Positions 1,870 through 8,311 of a stretch of DNA of 15,790 nt are shown here, piece after piece. Origin of the DNA: an uncultured Mailhella sp. Lineage in GTDB: Bacteria; Desulfobacterota; Desulfovibrionia; Desulfovibrionales; Desulfovibrionaceae. The stretch covers positions 1-15,790 of the forward strand of contig CALUWZ010000022.1 in NCBI GenBank assembly GCA_944324625.1, in the 5' to 3' direction. The translations under genes were made by a program, and so were the position numbers. Numbering within the stretch: the stretch's first letter is position 1; each line of letters starts with the position of its first letter. Below the pieces are notes generated by a model. The model worked only from the letters and a program-made list of their open reading frames with translations. It searched no databases and was not told the DNA's origin.

Positions 1870-2796
1870 ATGGACGTACTGCTTATTGCGGGAGGCTGGT
1901 CTCCCGAACGGGAAATTTCGCTGAAAGGTGCCGAAGGCATACAAAAAGTGCTTGCCGAACGCGGCCACAGCGTCACCTTTTTTGATCTGTCGGAAGGTTT
2001 TGACGCACTCATCCCCCTTGCGCAGAAGGCGGAAGCGGCCTTTATCAACCTGCACGGCTCCCCGGGCGAAGACGGTCTGGTGCAGGCTCTTCTGGACCGC
2101 GTCAACTGTCCCTACCAAGGCGCGGACGCCGCAGGTTCTTTCCTTGCCATTCACAAATACGCCGCCAAAAGCCTGTTTAAAGCCCACGGCCTGAACACGG
2201 CAAAGGGAGTTTTCCTGCCCGGTCTGACAGCCGAAAACCTGCAGGAAAAAGCCGATCTTACGGAAAAAGAACTGCGCTATCCCCTTTTTGTCAAATCCAA
2301 CAACGGCGGTTCCAGCATTCACTTATACCGCGTCACAAACAGAAAAGAACTTCTTGAGGCCCTTGCCGCCTGCCTCGACGCAGGCCTTGAAGTCCTCATC
2401 GAAGAACTTATTAAAGGAAAAGAAGTGACCTGCGGCATTCTGGGCGAAGAAGCTCTTCCGCCTATTCTCATCGAATCCAAAGCGGAATTTTTCGATTTTA
2501 CCAACAAATACGCGGCAGACGGCGCAAAAGAAACCTGTCCTGCCCCCATAGGCGAAAAAGCCACCAAAGCCGTGCAGGAAATGGCGCTGAAAGCCCATAA
2601 AATACTCGGCCTTTCCGATTACAGCCGTTCCGACTTCATTTTGACCGAAGACGGCACGCCCTATATTCTGGAAGTCAATACCCTGCCCGGCATGACCTCG
2701 GCCAGCCTCGTGCCCAAGGAAGCCAAAGAAATAGGCCTGAGTTTCGGCGAACTCATCGAAAAGCTCCTCGAACTTGCCAAAAAGAAAAAACACTAA
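1870..2796 (+). CDS. ddl: D-alanine--D-alanine ligase
   Basis: This is a cytosolic ATP-grasp ligase of 308 residues, the usual Ddl length. It joins two D-alanines for the peptidoglycan stem peptide. The N-terminal motif GGWSPEREISL contains Glu13. HGSPGEDG (62-69) and PYQG (81-84) follow. The ATP-grasp domain shows LFVKSNNGGSSI (139-150), the acidic helper EELIKGKE, SRSDFIL with Asp255, and the metal/substrate end LEVNTLPGMTSASLVP (267-282) with Glu268 and Asn270. Some normally strong positions differ: GADAAGSFLAIHK stands where GSG.xASxxxMDK is common, and FFDFTNKY replaces YDYxxKY. The start at 1870 is supported by AAGGA at 1858-1862. It is the last gene of the ttcA-like/dut/HD operon and is followed by a terminator. 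Confidence 0.93.
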   Translation: MDVLLIAGGWSPEREISLKGAEGIQKVLAERGHSVTFFDLSEGFDALIPLAQKAEAAFINLHGSPGEDGLVQALLDRVNCPYQGADAAGSFLAIHKYAAKSLFKAHGLNTAKGVFLPGLTAENLQEKADLTEKELRYPLFVKSNNGGSSIHLYRVTNRKELLEALAACLDAGLEVLIEELIKGKEVTCGILGEEALPPILIESKAEFFDFTNKYAADGAKETCPAPIGEKATKAVQEMALKAHKILGLSDYSRSDFILTEDGTPYILEVNTLPGMTSASLVPKEAKEIGLSFGELIEKLLELAKKKKH

Positions 2797-3304: not shown

Positions 3305-4516
3305 ATGGCAGAAAACAATGCAAAGGACACCCAAACTGTCCCAAACCAAGCCCCAAGCCCTCTTGATGCTTCTGTTTTAAAATCCGTGCCCAAAGCCATT
3401 ATGGCAGGCCGCTTTGCTTACTGGAGTCTCGGCGTTGCCATGGCTGTCTGGGCAAGCCTCGTTCCTTTTGCCAAAAACCGCCTCGCCGTCAACGAAGCGG
3501 AACTCGGCATGCTTTTGCTCTGCCTCGGCCTCGGCGCCACCATATCCATGCCCTTTGCAGGCGCCATGACCGCCAAATTCGGCTGCCGCGCCATGCAGTG
3601 CGCGGGCATTCCCCTGTATTATCTTGCGCTTTTCGGCTTAAGTTTCATGCCCACGCCCCTCATGCAGGGCATTTGCCTGACCTTTTTCGGCATTATGAGC
3701 GGCAGCCTCGACGTGGCCATGAATATCCAAATCGCCTATCTTGAACAGGTGAGCCAAAGACGCCTCATGGCCAACCTGCACGCCATGTATATGATAGGCG
3801 TTGCCACGGGTGCGGGCGGCATGGCCGTTCTGCTCAATTTAACCGCAAGCCCCGTGCTTGCGGACGCCGTGCTCTGCCTTCTCAACATTGCGGGCCTTCT
3901 CGTTTTCCAAGGCCATTTCTTCCCCAAAAGAACCTTTGAAAACAAGGAAAAAACACCCCTCATCGTTGTTCCCAAAGGCCTTGTGTTCTGGCTCGGCTTC
4001 ATTTGCTTTTTCGTATACATGATCGAAGGCGTGCTCATGGACTGGAGCGCCCTGTTCATGCACGAAATACGCAGCGTCCCCCTTTCCGAGGCAAGCCTCG
4101 GCTATGCCATTTTCGCCGTCACCATGACCTGCGGACGCCTGACGGGAGACAGAATCGCCTCCCTCTTCGGCACCAAAAAACTCCTTTTTTACGGCCTTTC
4201 CGCAAGCGTGCTGTGTTTTCTTGCCATAGCCCTTGTCCCCTATGTGCCCCTGATTTTCTTCTTTTTCTTCCTGCTCGGCGTGTGCGCTTCCAATGCCGTG
4301 CCCATGCTCTTTACCCTTGTCACGAGAAATACCGTGGGCAGCCTTGACAACAGCATTGCGGGCGTAAGCCTGCTCGGCTATCTCGGCCTTTTGTCGGGCC
4401 CTGCCATTATGGGCTTTGTGGCGCACAGCTTCGGCCTTGTGTACGTTTTCGTGACTATGGCCTTTTTCCTTGCCTGCGTGGCCTTCCTCTTCACCCGCCT
4501 GAAACTCAAAGAATAG
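3305..4516 (+). CDS. MFS permease, YbjJ-like
   Basis: This 403-residue inner-membrane protein has about twelve hydrophobic segments, the standard size for the major facilitator superfamily. After a polar N-terminal tail of about 30 residues comes the first half. It contains a motif-A-like turn near MTAKFGCRAM (88-97) and the family-typical SGSLDVAMNIQ (132-142), followed by ANLHAMYMIG. In the second half VLMDWSALFMHEI and GRLTGDRIASLFG are also characteristic of YbjJ-like transporters, whose substrate is generally unknown. The ATG at 3305 is preferred over in-frame upstream codons because AAGGA lies at 3293-3297 with 7-nt spacing and the promoter would overlap a longer start. It precedes the MBOAT acyltransferase by 85 bp and may be co-transcribed with it. 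The substrate cannot be inferred. Confidence 0.88.
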   Translation: MAENNAKDTQTVPNQAPSPLDASVLKSVPKAIMAGRFAYWSLGVAMAVWASLVPFAKNRLAVNEAELGMLLLCLGLGATISMPFAGAMTAKFGCRAMQCAGIPLYYLALFGLSFMPTPLMQGICLTFFGIMSGSLDVAMNIQIAYLEQVSQRRLMANLHAMYMIGVATGAGGMAVLLNLTASPVLADAVLCLLNIAGLLVFQGHFFPKRTFENKEKTPLIVVPKGLVFWLGFICFFVYMIEGVLMDWSALFMHEIRSVPLSEASLGYAIFAVTMTCGRLTGDRIASLFGTKKLLFYGLSASVLCFLAIALVPYVPLIFFFFFLLGVCASNAVPMLFTLVTRNTVGSLDNSIAGVSLLGYLGLLSGPAIMGFVAHSFGLVYVFVTMAFFLACVAFLFTRLKLKE

Positions 4517-4601: not shown

Positions 4602-6119
4602 ATGAATTTTGTTACCCTTAATTTTGCGCTTTTCTTTCTTTGCGTGCTCATTCTGTTCAGCTTCAGCGCCCGTTCCGTAAAAACACACAAAATTTTTCTG
4701 CTGTGTTTCAACCTGATTTTTTATGCTTTTGCAGGCGTTCAGTTTCTGCCGCTGCTTTTAAGCGTGGCATTTATCAATTATGTTTCGGCAAAGCTCACCA
4801 ACGGCCGTCCCCTGAAAAAAGCGGGCTTCCGCCGTTTTACGGTATGTTTCTGCGTGAGCCTGCAGATTCTTCTCCTTGCCTTTTACAAATATTATGAATT
4901 TTTTATCCTGAACACGGAAAATCTGCTCCGCCTTGCAGGCCTTGACTATAGCCTCATCGGCCTTTTGCCCTCTGTGGACATTTTGCTGCCCGTGGGTCTC
5001 AGCTTTTATATTTTCCAAGGCATTTCCTATGCTGTCGACCGCTATCGGGACACGGGACTGAAAGCCCTCGGCTATTTTGACGTTCTGCTTTTTGTTTCCT
5101 TTTTCCCCACGGTTCTGGCAGGCCCCATAATGCGCAGCAGCCAGTTTTTTCCGCAGTTTGCCGAAGATCCCGCTCCCGATGACGAAGAATACAAAAAACT
5201 GGAAAAAAAATACATTGACGCCGACATTGCCGAAGGATTTGCCTATATCCTGAGCGGTCTGTTCAAAAAAGTGGTCATTGCCAGCTATCTTTCCGAACAT
5301 ATTGTCCGCGACGTTTTCCAAAATCCCGATTTCTACAGCTCCGAAACCGTGCTTGCCGCCATGTATGCCTATGCCATGCAGATTTTCTGCGACTTTTCGG
5401 GCTATACGGATTTGGCGATAGGCATAGGCAGGCTCATGGGCATAAAAATACCCCAAAACTTCAGCGCTCCCTATCTTGCCGTCAGCCTGCAGGATTTTTG
5501 GCGGCGCTGGCATATCAGCCTTTCGACATGGCTTCGGGATTACCTTTACATCACCCTCGGCGGAAACAGAAAAGGCAATAAATATTTCAACCTCTTTATC
5601 ACCATGACCTTGGGCGGTCTGTGGCACGGTTCGCACCTGCGCTTTCTTATCTGGGGCATGGCCCACGGACTCGGCCTTATCGTCAATCATGCATGGAAAA
5701 CGCTGTGCACCAATAAACTTTTTTCCGACGGCAAAGAAAAATCCGCAAAAGAAAACGCCCCGAAGCCGCACCCCGTTCTGCACGGAATATACAGCTTTTT
5801 CGGCTGGCTTCTGACCTTTCACACCGTCTGCGTGCTGTGGCTTTTCTTTCGGGCGGACAGCACGGAAAGCGCCCTTGCCATGCTTCGGCGGATTTTTGCC
5901 TTCACTGCCGAGGGCGACGGCTATTCCCTGCTTGTGCCTGCGGCAATTTTAATTACCATGCTCATGCAGGTTTTCGGCAAATACTGTTTTAACGGTCTTG
6001 CCCTGACCTTGGAAAAAGCATGGCTTCCCGTAAAAATCGCACTTATTGCCCTGCTGGCTGCCATTATCCTCAAAATGGGGCCTGACGGCGTTCTGCCCTT
6101 CATTTATTTTCAGTTTTAG
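4602..6119 (+). CDS. MBOAT family membrane O-acyltransferase (AlgI-like)
   Basis: This is a polytopic inner-membrane protein of 505 residues, close to AlgI, PatA and DltB in length and pattern. MBOAT proteins move an acyl group, usually acetyl, from a cytoplasmic donor across the membrane for transfer to an extracytoplasmic glycan or teichoic acid. The family landmarks are LPVGLSFYIFQGISY (129-143), VLAGPIMRSSQF (171-182), DFSGYTDLAIGIGRLMGI (264-281), LQDFWRRWHISLSTWLRDY (296-314), and GGLWHG (338-343) with His342, the expected catalytic histidine. MAHG follows at 353-356. A charged cytoplasmic loop (about 190-207) and a Lys-rich loop near 375-390 fit the topology. The start is supported by AAGG at 4592-4595. 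The next gene begins 8 bp after its stop and encodes an SGNH-domain protein, the partner type expected for an AlgI/PatA-like system. The acceptor is unknown. Confidence 0.93.
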   Translation: MNFVTLNFALFFLCVLILFSFSARSVKTHKIFLLCFNLIFYAFAGVQFLPLLLSVAFINYVSAKLTNGRPLKKAGFRRFTVCFCVSLQILLLAFYKYYEFFILNTENLLRLAGLDYSLIGLLPSVDILLPVGLSFYIFQGISYAVDRYRDTGLKALGYFDVLLFVSFFPTVLAGPIMRSSQFFPQFAEDPAPDDEEYKKLEKKYIDADIAEGFAYILSGLFKKVVIASYLSEHIVRDVFQNPDFYSSETVLAAMYAYAMQIFCDFSGYTDLAIGIGRLMGIKIPQNFSAPYLAVSLQDFWRRWHISLSTWLRDYLYITLGGNRKGNKYFNLFITMTLGGLWHGSHLRFLIWGMAHGLGLIVNHAWKTLCTNKLFSDGKEKSAKENAPKPHPVLHGIYSFFGWLLTFHTVCVLWLFFRADSTESALAMLRRIFAFTAEGDGYSLLVPAAILITMLMQVFGKYCFNGLALTLEKAWLPVKIALIALLAAIILKMGPDGVLPFIYFQF

Positions 6120-6127
6120 AGCGTATT

Positions 6128-8311
6128 ATGAAAATCTGCAAAGTTTCCCGAAAAAGCCTGCTTATTTATGCCGTTGTCTTTTTCCTCATGCTGTTTTTTG
6201 AGGCGCAGCGCCTGAACCCCCTGCTGGAACGGGAAAGCGCAAAATATCCGTTTCTGCGTCCCATACAGGAATTTCTGACCGAAACAGGCGAAAAAAGCGG
6301 CCTGTATGCCCTGAGCAGCCGCATGTACGATACGGTCAGCGCCGTAAGCCAAAATTCCCTTTTCAGCGAAAACCGCAGCCTTTTTCCCGTACTGCAGACA
6401 TGGCTTGACGGAATGCAGCGCAGGCTGACGGCCCAAAGCGGACAAAACAGCACACAGACTGCAGAACAAAACACCGCACAAAATACGGCACAGAACACCG
6501 CACAGAACGCGGCAGACAGCGCAGAACAGAATACGGCGCAGACACAGCCTGCCGAAAATTCCGCCTTGCAAAAAGAGTCCCTGCAGAACCAAGCCGAACG
6601 CAGCCAAACAGCCTCCCGAACAAAAAGCGTTTCGGCTGAAAGTTCCGTGCAGAAAACTGCCGTGCCTGCACAAAACAGCGGCGGTGCGGCAAAAGAAAGC
6701 GCAGAGCAGAAGAGCCTGCCGCCGTATAAGCAGAACAGCCTCGGCTATCCCTTCAATACAGATTTATTGGAAAAAAATCAGTATCCCGAAGGCTCTGACA
6801 TTTATCACGCCCTTATGCCCGATTTCGGCAGAAAGAAAACCGTGCTTCTTATCGGCGATTCCATGATGATGGAAGGCCTCGGCCCCACCCTGCACCACCG
6901 CCTGCGCAGACGCGACAATCTGGACGTATACCGTGAGGGAAAATATTCTTCGGGCCTCAGCCGTCCCGACTTTTACGACTGGCCGAAAAACCTCGCCGCC
7001 ATGCTGGAAAAATACAGCCCTGACCTGCTGATAATGAGCCTCGGCGCCAACGACACCCAAGACATTGTCATAGACAAAAAGCGTTATTTTATCGACACCA
7101 AGCCGTGGGCTGAAATTTACCTTCAGCGTTCCAAGGATTTTATTGCCCTTGCGGACAACGGCAGACGGCATATCGTATGGGTGAGCCTGCCCGTCATGGG
7201 CAAGGAGCCCTACTTCACCCGCACGCGCCTGATTTCCAGACTGCAGGCCGAGGCAAGCCGAACCGTTCCCAACGCAAGCTTTGTGAACATAGAGCACCTG
7301 CTCACGGAAAACGGCAGATATACGACCTTTTACAAGGATAAGAACAATCAGAGCATACGCCTGCGCTCACAGGATTTAATCCATGTCAGCAATGCGGGCG
7401 GCGAAATTCTCACTGATTATGTCCTGCCCGAAGTGGACAGACACCTTGCAGCCCTGTACGCCGAGGACGTGCCCCAAAGCTATCCGCCCGCTGCAGGCAT
7501 GGCAAACCGTGTGACCTTTACCTCGGAACTGCGCAGAAAACAGGCCGAATACTTTATATGGCTGCCCCAAACGGACACCAAAATCAGTGCCCCGAAAGAA
7601 CCTCTTAATGTGCAGAAAGCCATTAAAGAACAGCTCGGAAACAGCCGCTTCCCCGTTTTGTACCTTCTGCACGGCGCAACAGGTTCAGGCAGGGATTTTG
7701 CGGATAATCTCGGCAAAAGCCTGCAGAAAATCGCCGACGGCAAAAAAGTCATTATTGTGGCCCCAAGCTGCGAACCCTTCGGCTGGTATGTAAACAGTCC
7801 GCTCATTGCAGAAAATCAAATCGCCGATTTTATCACCAAAGAACTGGTTCCGCATATCGACAGCCTCTATCCCTCCAGCGGAAAACGCAGCATTGCAGGG
7901 CTCAGCATGGGCGGCCACGGCGCACTTTTACTCGGCTTCCGCAATAAAAGCCTGTTCCGTTCCATGGCAGGCATAAGCGCGGTTATGGACATACGTGTCC
8001 ACAAGGACAGCTGGAAAATAAAAAGTCTTCTCGGCGAATACGAACAAAACCAAAAAATCTGGGATGAAAACAGCGTGCTTGCCCTTATCGGCGAAAAATG
8101 GCCAGCCACCTCGCCCAAGCAGATCATTGTCACAACAGGCACGCAGGACAATCTTGTTCTGGAAGAAAACCGCAGGGCACAGGAACTGTTCCGCAAACGG
8201 GGATTCACCATAGACTACACGGAAGCCGAAGGCACGCACAGCTGGGACTTTTGGCGCAGATACATACCGCAGGTTCTCGAAAAGCAGGCGGATTACCTCA
8301 ATTCCCTGTAA
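6128..8311 (+). CDS. Membrane-anchored DUF459/SGNH hydrolase fused to an esterase-D-type hydrolase
   Basis: This 727-residue protein is probably periplasmic and held by an N-terminal membrane helix (about residues 9-25). After it come a short helical segment, a Gln/Ala/Thr/Asn-rich linker (about 103-195), and a DUF459-type SGNH domain (about 236-445). That domain has block I IGDSMM (nucleophile Ser245), SSGLSRPDFYDWP, GAND (306-309) and DLIH (Asp416, His419). The last ~250 residues form an alpha/beta hydrolase of the putative-esterase (esterase D / S-formylglutathione hydrolase) type: PVLYLLHG (509-516), GLSMGGHGALL (591-601) with Ser593, Asp674 in TGTQDN and His704 in GTHSW. Both catalytic sets look intact. 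It starts 8 bp after the MBOAT gene with a poor ribosome-binding site, suggesting translational coupling. By analogy with PatA/PatB and AlgI/AlgX, the SGNH domain may complete acyl transfer; the esterase may remove, edit or receive acyl groups. The fusion is seen directly; the role is inferred. Confidence 0.88.
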   Translation: MKICKVSRKSLLIYAVVFFLMLFFEAQRLNPLLERESAKYPFLRPIQEFLTETGEKSGLYALSSRMYDTVSAVSQNSLFSENRSLFPVLQTWLDGMQRRLTAQSGQNSTQTAEQNTAQNTAQNTAQNAADSAEQNTAQTQPAENSALQKESLQNQAERSQTASRTKSVSAESSVQKTAVPAQNSGGAAKESAEQKSLPPYKQNSLGYPFNTDLLEKNQYPEGSDIYHALMPDFGRKKTVLLIGDSMMMEGLGPTLHHRLRRRDNLDVYREGKYSSGLSRPDFYDWPKNLAAMLEKYSPDLLIMSLGANDTQDIVIDKKRYFIDTKPWAEIYLQRSKDFIALADNGRRHIVWVSLPVMGKEPYFTRTRLISRLQAEASRTVPNASFVNIEHLLTENGRYTTFYKDKNNQSIRLRSQDLIHVSNAGGEILTDYVLPEVDRHLAALYAEDVPQSYPPAAGMANRVTFTSELRRKQAEYFIWLPQTDTKISAPKEPLNVQKAIKEQLGNSRFPVLYLLHGATGSGRDFADNLGKSLQKIADGKKVIIVAPSCEPFGWYVNSPLIAENQIADFITKELVPHIDSLYPSSGKRSIAGLSMGGHGALLLGFRNKSLFRSMAGISAVMDIRVHKDSWKIKSLLGEYEQNQKIWDENSVLALIGEKWPATSPKQIIVTTGTQDNLVLEENRRAQELFRKRGFTIDYTEAEGTHSWDFWRRYIPQVLEKQADYLNSL
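6461..6544 (+). repeat. Degenerate 12-bp tandem repeat encoding Q-N-T-A units
   Basis: Residues 112-139 of the SGNH/esterase protein read as repeated (A)QNTAQNTAQN units made by a degenerate 12-bp repeat. Codons vary between copies (ACC/ACG, CAA/CAG), so it is an old or selected peptide repeat rather than a recent slippage product. It forms a flexible linker between membrane anchor and catalytic domains. Confidence 0.7.

Follow-up and report, generated by a model that had tools for sequence, protein, structure and literature searches.

Anatomy of the locus

The window analysed here, that is, the whole stretch of 15,790 nucleotides, is the entire contig C22 of a draft genome of an uncultured Mailhella sp. 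(G000:C22; 1.80 Mb in 237 contigs, 88.7% complete). It encodes an O-acyltransferase of the MBOAT family followed, after a gap of 8 bp (6120-6127), by a single anchored polypeptide in which an SGNH domain of the DUF459 (PatB) type is fused to an esterase-D-type alpha/beta hydrolase domain (Table 1). Both open reading frames and their spacing, proposed in an initial annotation of this DNA, were confirmed, and the three Pfam families named there (PF03062, PF04311 and PF00756) were all matched. The combination of a membrane anchor and two hydrolase domains on one chain is likewise borne out by Pfam, hydropathy and an AlphaFold2 model of the fusion protein (mean predicted local distance difference test score (pLDDT) 86.9; predicted template modelling score 0.75). 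Windows of 19 residues with hydropathy >1.6 occur only at the N-terminal anchor of the fusion, and the PF00756 match covers residues 505-715 (7640-8272; E 2.1e-22). Ser, Asp and His are retained in both hydrolases, as the annotation had claimed (S245/D416/H419 in the SGNH domain and S593/D674/H704 in the esterase domain). The stretch preceding the SGNH domain ranges from 26 to 427 residues among the 11 fusion rows compared.

Table 1. Features of the MBOAT-fusion locus, its context genes and the second MBOAT-SGNH pair of the same genome
Feature	Position	Strand	Basis
MBOAT O-acyltransferase (PatA-like), 505 aa	4602..6119	+	PF03062, E 1e-32
C-terminal FIYFQF of MBOAT (FxYxxF acyl-tyrosine shuttle motif)	6099..6116	+	motif according to PMC12148441
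Anchored DUF459-esterase fusion protein, 727 aa	6128..8311	+	open reading frame, Pfam, AlphaFold2 model
N-terminal membrane anchor, residues ~6-29	6143..6214	+	hydropathy; model helix 8-24
Low-complexity disordered spacer, residues ~106-187	6443..6688	+	pLDDT <50 over 106-187
SGNH domain, DUF459/PatB type, residues 238-434	6839..7429	+	PF04311, E 8.9e-56; nucleophile Ser245, block II Ser274
Esterase-D-type alpha/beta hydrolase domain, residues ~455-727	7490..8308	+	nucleophile Ser593
D-Ala-D-Ala ligase, context gene upstream	1870..2796	+	PF07478, E 1.7e-51
MFS transporter between ligase and MBOAT, context gene	3305..4516	+	PF07690, E 1.5e-27
Second MBOAT-SGNH pair: MBOAT ending FIYFNF and ALGX/DHHW protein	L039:1529-4020 (G000 C20)	-	

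A PatA/PatB-like core

In PMC12148441, PatA is described as auto-acetylating the Tyr within a C-terminal FxYxxF motif, the acetyl-Tyr peptide of this motif as serving PatB as a donor, and replacement of the block II Gly by Ser or Asn, together with a hydrophobic wall, as marking transferases. The window MBOAT combines the PF03062 domain with an FxYxxF end that includes the acceptor Tyr, and the SGNH domain is a DUF459 domain with Ser-Asp-His and the block III Asn. In block II, Ser274 takes the place of Gly and aligns with Ser161 of NgPatB, and Ile418, beside His419, aligns with Ile304 of the same protein. The predicted SGNH fold is close to that of PatB; a sequence search for solved relatives of the MBOAT returned only the DltB-type structures 6bug and 8jem. 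Given the FIYFQF end and the closeness of the SGNH model to PatB, the core is most likely PatA/PatB-like, and we consider the writer part of the explanation favoured below, acylation of the PatA/PatB kind, highly probable.

The SGNH partner is of the PatB type (DUF459), not of the AlgX/AlgJ type. The MBOAT-SGNH O-acylation system recognized in the initial annotation thus stands, and its AlgI-like label gives way to a PatA/PatB-like one, on account of the DUF459 partner and FIYFQF. An AlgI/AlgX identity of the window pair was considered and rejected, the fusion having no ALGX match at E 0.001 in Pfam. In a six-frame search of the window genome, DUF459 and PF00756 were each matched once and MBOAT twice. 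The second MBOAT, on contig C20, adjoins an ALGX/DHHW protein and forms an AlgI/AlgX-like pair with it, so that this genome encodes two distinct MBOAT-SGNH systems. In Lawsonia, an MBOAT adjoining an ALGX protein is located on a 194-kb plasmid (L158).

Distribution of the fusion and its linkage to MBOAT

The fusion was sought in 149 genomes of family f1, to which the genus of the window belongs, in a phylum sample of 395 genomes and in the 37 genomes of a distant family, f82. DUF459 and the esterase domain were both detected in 8 of the 149 family-sample genomes, six of the window's genus and two of genus g7; whole-genus searches found the fusion in 6/6 and 2/4 genomes, respectively. One g7 genome is that of Lawsonia intracellularis, recognized by a 2,500-base segment of contig C4 that matches plasmid NC_008014 at 100% identity. 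The other matching genera of the family encode DUF459 without the esterase, or the esterase alone; the esterase-less DUF459 genes are often present in tandem copies, and some of these loci adjoin an MBOAT gene. One such cluster (L049:5295-10216 (-)) consists of an MBOAT gene followed by three DUF459 genes, the last two of which are separated by an RlpA-like (DPBB_1) gene; this arrangement suggests expanded PatB-type systems in other Desulfovibrionaceae.

In the phylum sample, a single match spans both domains in 7/395 genomes, the window's own and six of f82. Within f82, 34/37 genomes match the fusion, and one match covers both domains in 31/37. Candidatus Adiutrix is among the names of the matched proteins, and because two of its proteins (P0072 and P0085) fall among the f82 rows in the tree, f82 is probably Adiutrix-like. 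Such recurrence across f1 and f82 led us to reject an isolated assembly artefact or chance joining, the former raised as a concern in the annotation, and supports the second, structurally separate hydrolase on the anchored chain as a recurrent component. Two fusions (G439:C197 and G553:C51; L079 and L122) carry an extra DUF459 domain in front, in frames of 890 and 1043 aa.

MBOAT is encoded directly upstream of the fusion in five of the six genomes of the window's genus and in both fusion-bearing g7 genomes. In the sixth (G086), a fusion-like frame begins after the MBOAT gene and runs into the contig end, and the rest of a fusion lies on another contig, which is consistent with the same adjacency broken by the contig end. 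The conserved order beside MBOAT that the annotation proposed to count holds in these genera and does not extend to f82 (see below), where the fusion gene has frr upstream in 20/30 loci and an ABC transporter gene in 21/30. Even so, MBOAT is present in 31/37 f82 genomes. Thirty f82 MBOAT loci, one per genome, were typed by their best score: 25 go with the window MBOAT, one of these cut by a contig end, and five with the AlgX-linked type, four of which end in FIYFNF. The co-occurrence of MBOAT and fusion in f82 without linkage supports a functional pair. In the MBOAT tree, the fusion-linked f1 MBOATs form one clade (98/92) and 20 window-type f82 MBOATs another; a weak fork joins both to MBOATs linked to separate DUF459 proteins, and the tree does not indicate that MBOAT and fusion travelled together in f82.

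Conservation and loss of the esterase triad

The first alignment comprised 101 rows, the window protein and 100 of 120 proteins listed among 486 found. In the SGNH domain, Ser245 is present in 100 rows (the sequence of the remaining one, P0082, starts after that position) and Asn308, Asp416 and His419 in 101 each; in the esterase domain, Ser593 is present in 96, Asp674 in 99 and His704 in 98. Pooling these rows with 37 genome-derived ones and dropping 15 near-identical rows (14 with both triads intact, and P0082, in which the esterase Ser is gone as in G360) left 123 non-redundant fusions, all of them with S-D-H as the SGNH triad. The esterase triad is complete in 115 of the 122 rows having the domain and is broken in Lawsonia intracellularis, G559, G360, P0044, P0070, P0089 and P0094, by at least five changes on a quick tree in which 28 of 120 inner branches are unresolved. 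Single metagenome rows may hold errors; the Lawsonia row sits on a 1.46-Mb contig. The one row counted as lacking the esterase domain, the Mailhella-like P0049, stops at 473 aa, just inside it, and is either a natural esterase-less form or a product of a frameshift or assembly error.

That the SGNH triad is always kept and the esterase triad repeatedly lost indicates an indispensable writer site and a dispensable esterase site; judging by the alignment, the esterase domain seems accessory. The suggestion of the annotation that the system both adds and trims acyl groups fits the anatomy, but these losses indicate that trimming cannot be a general requirement.

Mechanism and alternatives

The explanation we favour, with a likelihood close to but short of even for the statement as a whole, is periplasmic glycan acylation of the PatA/PatB kind in which the PatB component is fused to an eraser esterase. 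An acyl group, probably acetyl supplied by acetyl-CoA, would first be loaded by the MBOAT onto the Tyr in its own FIYFQF end; Ser245 of the SGNH domain, whose tether consists of the N-terminal helix and the long spacer, would then take over the acyl group and pass it to the glycan; and the esterase domain, via Ser593, would strip O-acyl groups off the same polymer, a task that in Neisseria and Campylobacter falls to Ape1, a separate protein. What is observed at the base of this proposal is the anatomy, the motifs, the predicted folds, the recurrence of the fusion, its co-occurrence with related MBOATs and the intact triads in the window. The domain added to the PatB-like chain probably acts as an esterase on O-acyl glycans and replaces Ape1. 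The Ape1 gene is placed downstream of patB (PMC6174289), and Gram-negatives with O-acetylated peptidoglycan are said to have Ape1 as a rule (PMC7083599). No ape1 gene is found beside the fusion in the window, where the next gene is a RidA-type one (Ribonuc_L-PSP) on the opposite strand.

Inferred are the acyl group, probably acetyl, the target polymer, most likely peptidoglycan, and the direction and the substrate of the esterase step. Peptidoglycan is suggested by the protein family, by the D-Ala-D-Ala ligase gene, a peptidoglycan precursor gene that also lies upstream in two syntenic loci (L002 and L042), and weakly by RlpA in one DUF459 cluster; RlpA is so rare a neighbour (1/14 loci in one search, 0/6 in another) that its support is weak. 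The MFS gene of G039 is shortened to 163 aa (L042:14385-14876 (-)), compared with ~400 aa in the window.

A number of observations weigh against this explanation. On the writer side, the block II residue is Ser in 62 of 81 fusion rows and Gly (11) or Ala (8), not Ser or Asn, in the other 19; in one of the 123 fusions (G555), block III is without its Asn in the alignment; and the fusion scores far below the cut-off of the PatB equivalog NF045704 in NCBIfam (93 vs 580 bits), for which reason it is not classed as PatB itself. None of the 30 f82 fusion loci has MBOAT in its flanks (~1.5 kb or less), and the 24 readable ends of window-type f82 MBOATs read FIYFQY in 23 cases and FIYFQF in one. MBOAT was not detected in G513, which is 96% complete and has the fusion, nor in five less complete f82 genomes, among which G545, G547, G548 and G557 match the fusion. 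In five of the 30 f82 fusion loci, all of g206, the fusion has as neighbours a 3beta-HSD-like gene, a gene resembling a polyketide synthase (KS and FabA domains) or both, and the g206 fusions carry Gly in block II; judging by gene context, the acyl group in g206 could be other than acetyl. On the eraser side, the seven broken triads and the esterase-less P0049 count against an essential function, since an essential eraser is unlikely to be lost by so many independent changes. The replacement of Ape1 is in line with a search of the eight f1 genomes with the fusion, which detected no GDSL_2 match outside it in an open frame >278 aa, with one Pfam model, no positive control genome and f82 unsearched. 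Ape1 is larger than 278 aa. In Lawsonia, the fusion itself is the sole GDSL_2 match and its esterase triad is broken, so that an eraser would be wholly missing there.

Two side observations concern these genes. The f82 polyketide-synthase-like protein (KS, AT-like, FabA) ends, unusually, in HTH_3 matches (L154:9594-16619 (-), where the gene is 7 bp upstream of the fusion; also L078:3392-4516 (-)). In G095, a GDSL_2 gene, a candidate separate eraser, lies between DUF459 and MBOAT (L043:2836-3468); no signal peptide was seen at its start by eye, and in G140, of the same genus, no GDSL_2 gene lies between the two.

The repeated loss of the esterase triad, against none for the SGNH triad, is also what would be expected if the same writer carried an esterase-type domain whose main role is structural or in glycan binding, hydrolysis being secondary or vestigial. 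Consistent with this, a GxxMGGHG stretch is kept in 38/38 genome-derived and window rows, a count biased by the choice of rows through MGGHG, and the confidence of the model, which comes without predicted aligned error, does not fall to 90 or below across the connector (435-505), as packing of the two domains against each other would lead one to expect. A purely structural module should nevertheless drift more than is seen, all three residues being kept in 115 of 122 rows and all deep clades of the fusion tree being represented among these, and we regard this alternative as unlikely, if appreciable. Rather improbable, in our estimate, is that the same machine serves another polymer, exopolysaccharide, lipopolysaccharide or another envelope glycan, with the esterase editing that polymer. 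Several polymers are served by MBOAT-SGNH pairs according to PMC12148441, and the window itself does not show which one is acylated; yet the characterized DUF459 proteins act on peptidoglycan (PMC9487903), the ligase gene lies upstream of the window pair, the same genome has a separate AlgX-type pair, and a Pfam scan of fusion neighbours, many of which lay outside it, detected no polysaccharide synthase.

A two-step relay, in which the esterase-type domain would be a second acyltransferase passing the acyl group to another acceptor, as in the antigen 85/mycoloyl transferases of the same fold, seems the least probable of the alternatives. A broader proposal, to which we give little credence, is a self-contained writer-editor whose two serine sites share a single acyl flow, with writing by the SGNH domain and either erasure or relay of the acyl group by the esterase-type domain; some lineages would be pure writers through a disabled second site, and the acyl supply of one lineage would have shifted towards what a polyketide synthase or fatty-acid synthase makes.

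Under the favoured eraser explanation, there would be gut-associated members of the Desulfobacterota (Mailhella, Lawsonia and, in all probability, bacteria of the Adiutrix kind) whose envelope is acylated by a route absent from the literature searched. O-acetylation of peptidoglycan governs autolysins and resistance to lysozyme; in the known Gram-negative version, the writer and the eraser are separate genes. The annotation knew of no described system of this composition, and in titles and abstract openings we likewise found neither a DUF459-esterase fusion nor its pairing with an MBOAT. Esterases of multimodular build are on record for xylan, in a paper where the word MBOAT does not occur (PMC12247016). 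Natural variants that lack only the esterase site offer a ready comparison, within one family, between proteins that have the presumed eraser and proteins that do not.

Comparison with known systems

The alginate O-acetylation system AlgI/AlgJ/AlgX shares the MBOAT plus SGNH logic, but the SGNH partner in the window is DUF459, not ALGX. Esterase D/S-formylglutathione hydrolase and the CE1 esterases (PF00756) share the predicted fold and the Ser-Asp-His triad of the second domain, which, in contrast, is fused, anchored and encoded beside an envelope acyltransferase, and scores below the S-formylglutathione hydrolase equivalog cut-off (TIGR02821 in NCBIfam; 58.5 vs 281.7 bits). Antigen 85 and the mycoloyltransferases (PF00756) are also alike in predicted fold, with a structural score below that of the esterases.

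The closest likeness is to PatA/PatB of Neisseria and Campylobacter: an MBOAT with a C-terminal FxYxxF, an anchored DUF459 protein built of a helix, a spacer and an SGNH domain, neighbouring genes and, in the window, a block II Ser. Unlike in these systems, the PatB-like chain carries a fused, unrelated esterase-D-type domain, and in f82 the MBOAT and fusion genes are unlinked. Ape1 of the PatA/PatB/Ape1 systems is an SGNH esterase with CBM35, to which the window esterase is unrelated. OatA, an AT3-SGNH fusion, resembles the window protein as a fusion inside an envelope O-acetylation system with an acyl-Tyr to Ser relay; the extra fused module is a membrane acyltransferase in OatA and an esterase-type domain in the window.

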